From NCBI RefSeq assembly GCF_008124605.1, contig NZ_VRYN01000008.1, forward strand, positions 1 through 47,084: a stretch of DNA of 47,084 nt. The letters run 5' to 3'. This document shows positions 44,015-47,084 of this stretch, piece after piece. Source of the stretch: Halobacterium salinarum DSM 3754 (GTDB lineage Archaea; Halobacteriota; Halobacteria; Halobacteriales; Halobacteriaceae). How positions within the stretch are numbered: the first letter of the stretch is position 1; each line of letters opens with the position of its first letter. A program made the translations under genes and the position numbers. The notes under the pieces were generated by a model, which saw only the letters and a program-made list of their open reading frames with translations, had not been told where the DNA came from and ran no database searches.

Positions 44015-44113
44015 ATTCGGAGTCTGGGGTCTGTTGTTCGTAAAACTCACGAAGCGGATTGACTGAAGAAGTGCTGGGGAGCACAGCCCAGTCACTCAAC
44101 CGAAGCTACCTAC

Positions 44114-44131
44114 GTGATACAAGCGTATCAC
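44114..44131 (+). promoter_or_regulatory. palindromic operator of the RHH-RelE pair
   Basis: GTGATAC (44114-44120) and GTATCAC (44125-44131) form a perfect 7-bp inverted repeat with a 4-bp spacer. It ends 5 nt before the ATG of the RHH gene. This is a typical autoregulatory site for a toxin-antitoxin operon; binding by the RHH antitoxin is inferred. Confidence 0.7.
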
Positions 44132-44136
44132 ATCGT

Positions 44137-44415
44137 ATGAGCACTGACAGCGACGGCGGTGGCGACGGCGAGATGGAGAAGATCAACGTCCGGGTACCGC
44201 AGTCGCTGCTGGCACAGGTCGACGAAGTATGGGAAGAGCGTGGCTACGCGACCAAGTCCGAATTCATCCGCGATGCCCTCCGGGATGCGGTCAATCCCCC
44301 CACGCAGCTGTCCGAGGAAGCGCTCAAGCACCTGGCAGAGAGCCGCGAACAGCGAGAGCAGGGTGAGACGGTGTCCCAAGACGACGTGAAGGACCGCCTG
44401 CGCATCGATGACTAA
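44137..44415 (+). CDS. ribbon-helix-helix (CopG-type) antitoxin or repressor
   Basis: The 92-residue product has an RHH fold (about residues 14-52: KINVRVPQSLLAQVDEVWEERGYATKSEFIRDALRDAV) and an acidic, Gln/Glu-rich C-terminal tail that would wrap a toxin. The ATG at 44137 is preferred to an upstream in-frame codon at 44059 because it lies just after the palindrome. It overlaps the RelE gene by 8 nt. Confidence 0.85.
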   Translation: MSTDSDGGGDGEMEKINVRVPQSLLAQVDEVWEERGYATKSEFIRDALRDAVNPPTQLSEEALKHLAESREQREQGETVSQDDVKDRLRIDD

Positions 44416-44677
44416 AGTCGAGTGGACATCAAAAGCACTCGATTTGCTAGACGGACTCGACATCGAAGCCCAAGAGCGACTGGTCAAGAAACTCGACGAG
44501 GCGAAAGACTGGACCTCTCACCGCCTCGAAAAGCTCACCGGCTACCCGTACTACAAGCTCCGCGCCGGCGACTACCGAGCGACGACAGGATCGAATGCCG
44601 TGTCGACCACGTCCTCCACGAGCAGAAGGTTTCCGTCGAGTCCGATGAGAGCGCTATTCCAGAGGGAGAGTCGCTGA
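44408..44677 (+). CDS. RelE-type toxin with altered C-terminus, possibly inactive
   Basis: The 89-residue frame has a RelE/ParE N-terminal part (KVEWTSKALDLLDGLDIEAQERLVKKLDEAKDWTSHRLEKLTGYPYYKLRAGDYRA, to about residue 59). The expected continuation (hydrophobic strand, then a VGHRRxxY-like end) is missing. Instead the frame runs into a Ser/Thr/Arg-rich tail that looks out of frame. The +1 frame (DDRIECRVDHVLHEQKVSVESDE) is more haloarchaeal. A frameshift or deletion near 44582 is likely, so the toxin may be dead. Confidence 0.6.
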   Translation: MTKVEWTSKALDLLDGLDIEAQERLVKKLDEAKDWTSHRLEKLTGYPYYKLRAGDYRATTGSNAVSTTSSTSRRFPSSPMRALFQRESR

Positions 44678-45466
44678 TCAGTTAGTGAAGAACTGTTCCC
44701 ACAGGATGTCTGCAAGTGTGATTCCCGCATAGCCACCGACAACCATCACTAGGAAGGGAACGATGGCCTCGGACGCGGTGTTGGTATCTGCACTGAAAAC
44801 GCGGCTATCTCCGATTGCTGGTGAGAACGGACCACCATCATACATCTCCTTTGACCACTGCCGGTCTCCACTCCCAGCATCGAACGCCACGAGTTCATAG
44901 CGGTCGTAGCTCGCGAGGACGACATCCTCCGTCCGAACTAACGGACCCGGAATATTTGGCCCAGGAATTTCCCACTGTGTCTCACCCGTCTCACGGTCCA
45001 GCGCGTAGATTCCCTGAGCGGCAGCGCCATCTGCGGTGATATACACGGAATCGGCATCGATGGCTGGCGGGGCAGGGATACTTGCACGCTGATGATCGTC
45101 ACTAAACGTCCGCATCCACGGCGTGTCACCAGTGGACGCCGCAAGCGCAGTTACATCGCCCTGATCGCTCGTGGCGACAAGGAGGTCGTCAGCGACAGTC
45201 GGTGGATTGGGTCTGCCAGCTGTATTGTGTGTCCAAGTCGTCGTCCAGCTATCGGTGTCGAGTGCGACGAGCCCGTCGGTCGATGGCTCGGTATAGTCGC
45301 CAAGTACGGGCGTAACGGCGATCGGATCCGCGAGGGCTGGTGGCCCAGTTGGACGCCGATTGAGTTCGTGGGTCGTATCGGAGGACCCGTCATCGAGTTG
45401 TACGGTGGTTAGGGGTCGACCGTGGTGAGGACCTCGAGTTCGATGCGCCGGAGCACAGTGTAACAT
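44678..45466 (-). CDS. PQQ-type beta-propeller protein, 5'-truncated
   Basis: The product has beta-propeller repeats with the PQQ-like pattern [45 protein letters not shown] and [16 protein letters not shown] hydrophobic C-terminal helix ([23 protein letters not shown]) anchors it to the membrane. Full propellers have more blades and a signal peptide; the start here ([19 protein letters not shown] 45466) is not a signal and the first blade is partial. The gene is probably truncated at its 5' end. Extracellular location is inferred. Confidence 0.6.
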
Positions 45467-45595: not shown

Positions 45596-45919
45596 ATGTC
45601 CTCCGAACCACCGTCCCCACCGGCGAACCTCCCAACGGAGATCGTCAACACGCTCAACGAAGCCACATCGGAGCATCTTCGGGACGCTGCCAGCTACGCC
45701 GAGGCGTTGGCCGAATACAAGGAGCGTGAAGCTCGTCTCGAGGAGGAAGCGGACGATGCCGACGTCGAGGAACGCCCCGATGACCTCCCAGACGACGTGC
45801 CGGCGAAGGCGGCGATCACGATCAAGGAGATCAACGACAATCGCTACTACTACTGGCAGTGGCGGGAAGGTGATTCGGTGACGTCGAAGTACAGAGAGCC
45901 GGTGAATCCCGACGAGTAG
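45596..45919 (+). CDS. conserved small haloarchaeal hypothetical protein
   Basis: The 107-residue product has an N-terminal helix (PTEIVNTLNEATSEHLRDAASYAEALAEYKEREARL), a short acidic, Pro-rich part, and a C-terminal region AAITIKEINDNRYYYWQWREGDSVTSKYREPV. The YYYWQWREG segment recalls small DUF6788-type proteins seen on haloarchaeal plasmids; I cannot confirm the family. Function unknown. The long inverted repeat lies just upstream. Confidence 0.75.
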   Translation: MSSEPPSPPANLPTEIVNTLNEATSEHLRDAASYAEALAEYKEREARLEEEADDADVEERPDDLPDDVPAKAAITIKEINDNRYYYWQWREGDSVTSKYREPVNPDE

Positions 45920-46410
45920 ACGAGATGGAACTGTAGCCTGATATTCGTTTCAACGTGATTCGGAGCGCAGCAGATGACACCCCCCAGCGTGTGAATGGCT
46001 ACCAACCGCCACTCTCTGACGAGACTTCACACCGAGAGAAGACAGAGCAACACGCGGATAGATTACGCCTCGTTTACCCCCACACCCCTCAGTGTGAATG
46101 GTCCACCACCCAGGGTACCGTGATTAAGAAGCCCTTAACAGCAGAAGTCCTCATGCCGTAGGGAAGCTGTCGACTCAGTGGCGAACCTTCGGCACAAGGC
46201 CTTGCCTTTCAAAATGTACTTGCTCAAAGGACTGTTTAGACTGAGGTATAATAAAGATAACTACAGGTGCGGTGCAGTAGCGGGTCGGGTCAGCCACCGT
46301 GGCAGAACGTGTAAGCCGCTCTCCGTGCCGCACTAGGTTCTTCAACTCTCGCTCTATCACTACAACCGTCGTATTCTATGGGGGACCATTCACACCGAGG
46401 GGTGAGGGTG
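45920..46410. other. gene-free, origin-like region with ORB-type repeats
   Basis: No gene is supported in this 491-bp stretch. It holds three copies of a 24-bp element with core CCATTCACAC-3-GGGGTG: reverse at 45976-45999, reverse at 46081-46104 and forward at 46383-46406; the last two match at 22 of 24 positions. A weaker copy is at about 46025-46040. Between copies two and three lies an AT-rich tract (about 46200-46265). Haloarchaeal origin recognition boxes also end in a G-run (GGGGT) and flank AT-rich DNA next to orc genes. Confidence 0.6.
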
Positions 46411-46743
46411 TCACCATCCCATCAACGTCTGGAGTTCCGGCGTCGAGTTGATCAGTCCAGTTCGTGTGCTCTCAACGTCTCCTTGGAGCGAATACGATCT
46501 GAACTTCCCCTGATCTCCGCGTTCCTTCTTTTTCGATTCGAGAACTCCTGTCGTTACGTGCTTGTTCAGAAGCTCAAGCGCACGATTGTACCCCTTGGGC
46601 TCTACTTCGACGTCCCGTGCTACTGTTTGGTAAACCTCGTGAATCTCTGACGTCCGGAACCATTCTTTCTCCGGGTTATTCCGGTCAAGACGCGTGAGAG
46701 CAAACAGGAGTGATTTCCCTGACAGCGGAGTCCCTTTCACCAT
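46411..46743 (-). pseudogene. Orc1/Cdc6 C-terminal fragment
   Basis: The 110-residue open frame matches the winged-helix end of haloarchaeal Orc1/Cdc6: KSLLFALTRLDRNN, EWFRTSEIHEVYQTVARDV, KGYNRALELLNKHV, GKFRSYSLQGDVESTRTGLINSTPELQTLMGW. The AAA+ part (Walker A/B) is absent. The frame stays open upstream to about 46813 (GIFPGESLKLPSIGGKTRQLFIEMVKG) before a stop. The rest of the gene has been lost, probably through IS-related rearrangement. The remnant lies right beside the ORB-like repeats. Confidence 0.8.
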
Positions 46744-46848
46744 CTCGATAAAGAGTTGCCTTGTTTTGCCACCGATTGAGGGAAGTTTCAGACTCTCTCC
46801 CGGGAAGATTCCGTCAAGCTAACCAGGAATTGGACGCCGTCTGGCGAT

Positions 46849-47084
46849 ATGGCATCGCTCAGACGGCTTGCTTGGATGTGTCGAAACCTTGCCAAACAGC
46901 ACGTTGACGATCCGGACGTACCCGCCGCGCCGTCCGGCGCGGGCGGGTACGCCGAGTGGGTGCAGATCGCGTTGATTCTGTACCGTGTCGAACTGGAAAA
47001 GAGCCTCCGTGAATCCGAGGACTACCTCAACGAGATGCCCGGTGTTCTTGCCGTGTTTGGACTTGACGAAGCACCACACTACAG
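46849..47084 (+). CDS. IS5-family transposase, N-terminal part, runs off the window
   Basis: From ATG 46849 the open frame continues to the window edge without a stop. It reads SLRRLAWMCRNLAKQHVDD, AGGYAEWVQIALILYRVELEKSL, RESEDYLNEMPGVLAVFGLDEAPHY. This is the conserved N-terminal part of haloarchaeal IS5-type transposases. The catalytic DDE residues lie beyond the window. The left IS end should lie between about 46800 and 46848, but I could not define the terminal repeat. Confidence 0.75.
   Translation, partial: MASLRRLAWMCRNLAKQHVDDPDVPAAPSGAGGYAEWVQIALILYRVELEKSLRESEDYLNEMPGVLAVFGLDEAPHY

Follow-up and report, generated by a model that had tools for sequence, protein, structure and literature searches.

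The window, i.e. the whole 47,084-bp stretch analysed here, is the entire contig C8 of the draft genome of Halobacterium salinarum DSM 3754 (2.36 Mb in 40 contigs). Its right end carries three copies of the pattern CCATTCACAC-N3-GGGGTG, two perfect and one with a single mismatch, two on the minus and one on the plus strand. They are located downstream of the stop codon of a truncated orc1/cdc6 gene and not upstream of the gene (Table 1). In shuffled windows, 0.5 matches are expected at up to three mismatches, compared to the three observed, all at 0–1 mismatch. This confirmed what a sequence-only reading had noticed, three near-identical elements in both orientations around an AT-rich tract. 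At least two origin recognition boxes (ORBs) with a G-run in both orientations are characteristic of haloarchaeal orc/cdc6 origins, and the AT-rich tract is placed between the oppositely oriented ORB3 and ORB4, as in an origin. The longest inverted pair measures 33 nt and is 88% complementary.

Table 1. Features at the right end of the window
Feature	Position	Strand	Comment
Palindrome TTAACCAACA-N21-TGTTGGTTAA	45541..45581		14 bp upstream of the 107-aa gene
Gene of a conserved 107-aa protein	45596..45919	+	beside most intact versions of the Orc3-type origin
ORB1, CCATTCACACGCTGGGGGG	45980..45998	-	one mismatch, weakest box
Scar of the lost ORB2	45989..45998		from alignment and box lists of intact relatives
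ORB3, CCATTCACACTGAGGGGTG	46083..46101	-	perfect match
AT-rich tract, candidate unwinding element	~46223..46266		most AT-rich 40 bp between the boxes, 70% AT, holds conserved TATAATAAAGATAACTA
ORB4, CCATTCACACCGAGGGGTG	46386..46404	+	perfect match, inverted relative to ORB1 and ORB3, immediately beyond the orc stop codon
orc3 remnant, C-terminal winged-helix part	46411..46756	-	about 115 codons plus stop, AAA+ half missing
ISH1-type (IS5 family) insertion sequence, left end	46757..47084		begins TGCCTTGTT, runs off the contig end

Throughout the 2.36 Mb genome, the three boxes of the window are the only sites at 0–1 mismatch. A scatter of the element over many promoters, which the sequence-only reading had named as a refuting outcome, was thus not observed. 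One further site had two mismatches (C18:289); as contig C18 lacks an Orc, we took it as a chance match or a stray box. The other 13 matches had three mismatches, about as many as the 12 obtained with the reversed pattern as a control.

The truncated orc gene is the NRC-1 gene orc3

A minus-strand frame of 135 residues (46414–46818) matches the Cdc6 C-terminal winged helix with its residues 21–135 (Cdc6_C, E=1.4e-14) and TIGR02928 at positions 278–366 only. The C-terminal Orc1/Cdc6 remnant suspected from the letters alone is therefore real. Its full-length counterpart is a 423-aa Orc1/Cdc6; the remaining frame is still open and comprises 110 aa if counted from ATG. Homology to orc stops at about 46757; from there on, the sequence up to the contig end is an ISH1 element. 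At both tested ends, this element matches exactly the ISH1A copy adjoining the same position on plasmid pHSAL1 of the type strain 91-R6, so that the window strain is probably 91-R6 itself or a near-identical one.

Exact matches to the published knockout primers for orc3 of strain NRC-1 occur in the window at 46411 and 46732, with the third primer matching at 45424. Judged by these matches, the window fragment is orc3, which is located on pNRC200; a previous study (PMC1906834) listed it as one of ten orc genes and obtained a knockout. According to the passages on orc3 in that study, the deletion was tolerated (4/20 isolates) and the wild-type allele was merely about 300 bp larger than the deletion allele, a size that fits the truncated form; these passages mention neither the boxes nor a comparison with intact relatives. 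A slightly longer remnant (TIGR02928 223–366) with the same left part exists in NRC-1 (pNRC200), R1 (pHS3), GSL-19 and GN101. These four strains have a truncation in common, whereas in the window strain and 91-R6 ISH1 has additionally cut off more of the gene. The rest of the NRC-1 remnant was absent when searched for across the genome of the window strain. No relatives of the remnant were found in the viral contigs searched.

Among the derived changes in the remnant, four are replacements and three are silent, compared to 2 replacement and 69 silent changes in pairs of intact genes (Fisher p=3e-4; the test is approximate, since the pairwise counts share one reference gene and are not fully independent). 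By this measure, the winged-helix remnant has evolved without constraint and purifying selection on it has been lost.

Intact relatives keep the same boxes

The intact version of this arrangement is present on at least 23 replicons of other haloarchaea, with an Orc of about 423 aa, usually four boxes and usually the same 107-aa neighbour. The Orc open frames measure 406–429 codons and were found on 17 genome contigs plus several named plasmids; plasmids with an intact Orc occur in Haloplanus, Haloarcula marismortui, Halobacterium hubeiense, Natrinema and Halanaeroarchaeum. A B-family DNA polymerase follows the Orc on the Haloplanus, H. marismortui and H. hubeiense plasmids, and on the 124 kb plasmid pHSR2-01 the Orc3-type protein is the sole Orc. 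Strain GN101 carries an intact Orc3-type origin together with a broken one on the same molecule, megaplasmid 2 (NZ_EU080936.1, 162506–163774 and 270476–270979).

In the intact layout, three boxes point in one direction beyond the AT-rich tract, and the fourth is inverted and at most about 25 bp away from the stop codon of orc. All intact relatives have four boxes except the one of Halorarius, with three boxes and an intact Orc. Across the 23 intact relatives the boxes stand at near-fixed offsets from the orc stop. Those of the window agree, apart from the lost ORB2 and small indels, which places the locus among the Orc3-type replicons. At the site of ORB2, the intact relatives have about 34 bp extra with an additional CCATTCACACCGAGGGGTG box; in the alignment, the loss in the H. 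salinarum copies falls between repeated GTGTGAATGG. The end of ORB1 is mostly GGGGGG in the intact relatives, as it is in the window, and all 19 positions of ORB3, the middle box, are invariant in every aligned intact relative. Among 19 close intact relatives, 51 of the 57 box columns are invariant vs 172 of 434 other columns. This pattern looks like that of recognition sites under selection, and because conservation is much higher in the boxes than in the intervening DNA, we regard them as genuine origin recognition boxes. The presence of these boxes next to an intact Orc in orthologous replicons also supports the earlier proposal of such boxes next to a broken one.

Other Orcs of the genome and the probable origin of pHSAL1

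The next best Orc in the genome of the window strain is 37.6% identical to Orc3, and none exceeds 38%. A search for a matching box near any other Orc of this genome yielded none. The Orcs examined in detail have different boxes, among them GAACAGCGGAACCAGTGGGGTGG (C15), TTACACATCGATGACGGGG (C6), GAACAAATCGATAGGGGTGAG (C12), TTTACACTCGACACCCGGGGTGTG (C20) and TTTCACTCTGGACGAGGGGTG (C23), which are unlike those of Orc3 in sequence and spacing. An intact cognate orc/cdc6, as a functional origin has, was found neither adjoining the boxes nor elsewhere in the cell; there is only the winged-helix fragment. We considered the C23 Orc as the missing front half of orc3 and rejected it, as at 37.6% identity it represents another family and has boxes of its own. 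At this C23 locus (285–1235), the Orc frame stops before a full winged helix and about six TTTCACTCTGGACGAGGGGTG boxes are located upstream; perhaps it is a second disrupted origin.

GC skew was computed for four complete plasmids. For the three with an intact Orc3, the ranges were within the block-shuffle expectation or marginal, so that pHSAL1 alone (NZ_CP038632.1) was useful. The detrended cumulative GC skew of this plasmid has its maximum at 51,565, with a range reached by 0/500 block shuffles. The peak adjoins C6-type boxes TTACACATCGATGACGGGG of another Orc (51,434–51,537), and no extremum was observed at the orc3 boxes (353–777). The segment 51,079–53,185 with its skew extremum is therefore probably the main origin of pHSAL1.

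A probable relic of a plasmid origin

Taken together, the locus is very probably the relic of an Orc1/Cdc6-dependent plasmid origin (an Orc3-type replicon) that is inactive without its own Orc. In the intact form, whose boxes and AT-rich tract were established by comparison, the Orc of about 423 aa would bind the four boxes that immediately follow its gene on the 3' side and the AT-rich tract flanked by the opposed boxes would melt, as suggested by the known Orc/ORB mechanism for both steps; MCM would then be loaded. In the H. salinarum lineage, the replicon was probably merged into a larger plasmid with other initiators, and the Orc gene lost its AAA+ (ATPase) half plus one box. In the window strain and 91-R6, ISH1 has shortened the gene further. 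Lacking an Orc of its own, the origin would be inactive, and the remaining boxes may persist merely for lack of time to erase them.

Of the two alternatives offered by the sequence-only reading, we favour this dead plasmid origin because the remnant is unconstrained, no other Orc of the genome exceeds 38% identity or has a matching box nearby, the ori regions of Haloarcula hispanica require their own cdc6 for autonomous replication, which can be supplied in trans (PMC3936714), and the skew of pHSAL1 points elsewhere. The loss of one box alone does not imply death, since Halorarius has a three-box origin with an intact Orc. The remaining three boxes are almost untouched; in the H. salinarum remnants, changes affect 1 of 57 box columns vs 17 of 434 outside (p=0.71, a test without power), a rate indistinguishable from neutrality that indicates neither decay nor continued selection.

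An initiator gene that lacks an essential domain while its homologues are intact, as in the window, characterises disrupted haloarchaeal origins. In H. hispanica, oriC4-cdc6G and oriC5-cdc6H likewise keep boxes beside a cdc6 broken by rearrangement, with intact homologues elsewhere, and are non-functional (PMC4441112). In oriC5 it is the winged helix that is gone and the AAA+ part that is retained, whereas the window locus lost the AAA+ part. The best reading is that the locus belongs with these already described disrupted origins and not with functional ones. As described in a 2012 survey (PMC3528665), predicted haloarchaeal orc/cdc6 origins also have G-run ORB pairs around an AT-rich tract with family-specific boxes, and are sometimes located downstream of orc, as are the boxes of the window. 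The survey lists one origin on H. marismortui pNG600, a replicon on which we found an intact Orc3-type gene with window-type boxes, and the two may be the same. The H. salinarum relic would be omitted from that survey, as it counted only Orcs >300 aa.

That the origin is still used or dormant, with a different Orc of the cell firing it in trans, the second alternative of the sequence-only reading, appears improbable. The intact boxes would allow it, H. hispanica Cdc6 can act in trans and Haloferax mediterranei has dormant origins (PMC3936714, PMC4595724), but origins are specific to their own Cdc6 (PMC3936714), no Orc of the window genome resembles Orc3 beyond the 38% given above, the boxes at the other examined Orcs differ in sequence and spacing, and the skew of pHSAL1 indicates another origin. 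For the window strain this alternative is thus not supported; it may hold in GN101, whose megaplasmid carries an intact Orc3 alongside the remnant and where the remnant boxes could be bound by this intact Orc.

We regard it as even less probable that fragment and boxes were kept as a regulator, with a headless Orc acting on the boxes, or the boxes soaking up Orc to exclude or tame related plasmids. The open frame of the fragment and the precedent of an ORB-rich region titrating Cdc6E would fit, yet purifying selection on the fragment is lost, its deletion is tolerated, and the coexistence of remnant and intact copy on one GN101 replicon means that the intact replicon is not kept out by remnant boxes. 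Boxes serving as operator sites for the orc or 107-aa gene instead of an origin are hardly conceivable. One box does adjoin the orc stop at less than 25 bp, and on the opposite side the closest gene terminates at 45919, but the boxes stand at the 3' ends of both genes, outside promoters, the genome lacks promoter-scattered copies, and G-run, two orientations and AT-rich tract fit haloarchaeal ORBs.

A palindrome upstream of the 107-aa gene

The 107-aa family had no match in Pfam or NCBIfam. Its predicted structure consists of two helices and a three-strand sheet (mean pLDDT 77, pTM 0.38) and in this model is not clearly a DNA-binding fold. The window genome has four further matches to the family. 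No fewer than three of these adjoin Orc genes whose boxes are unrelated, and the matching genes also have the palindrome, 4–14 bp before their start.

In its general form (TTAACCAACA-N20..23-TGTTGGTTAA, 40–43 bp), the palindrome occurs 15 times in the window genome, at least eight times beside Orc genes, whereas the reversed control had 0 matches. The copies include C1:960249, C12:24779 and 25156, C15:15535 and 15682, C16:2155, C18:668, C20:6055, C23:2447 and others, mostly on small (probably plasmid) contigs. Among 145 sampled Halobacteria genomes, 95 contain the palindrome, with 0 control matches in every genome. In the 21 loci compared, it mostly precedes the 107-aa gene by 14 bp (range 4–15), and across the class it is repeated ahead of further plasmid genes. 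H. hubeiense pSTJ002 has nine copies in intergenic gaps, one of which extends into the 3' end of the gene before it. The 107-aa family was present in 86/95 palindrome-bearing vs 12/50 palindrome-free genomes, a confounded comparison as both mark plasmids. In an exact-letter literature search for the palindrome, the ten listed of 58 matching papers were unrelated, which does not prove that it is undescribed. Tentatively, the palindrome might be the operator of a regulator, either the 107-aa family or a partner, and this regulator would bring the replication and backbone genes of haloarchaeal megaplasmids under joint control; such an undescribed plasmid-wide circuit, a rather doubtful proposal at present, would resemble the KorA/KorB operators of IncP plasmids. 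Further upstream (44059–44677), a gene for a ribbon-helix-helix protein is followed by a weakly ParE-like gene; the couple looks like a toxin-antitoxin pair.

Implications

The relic reading would account for the very short orc gene (orc3) listed in a model archaeon and suggests that Halobacterium megaplasmids still contain the stumps of replicons that were merged. A clean ORB sequence is what the intact family supplies, in a near-fixed layout and for an Orc class common to many genera. As the same boxes exist with an Orc (the second copy of GN101, H. hubeiense) and without one (H. salinarum), the specificity between Orc and ORB is directly testable.
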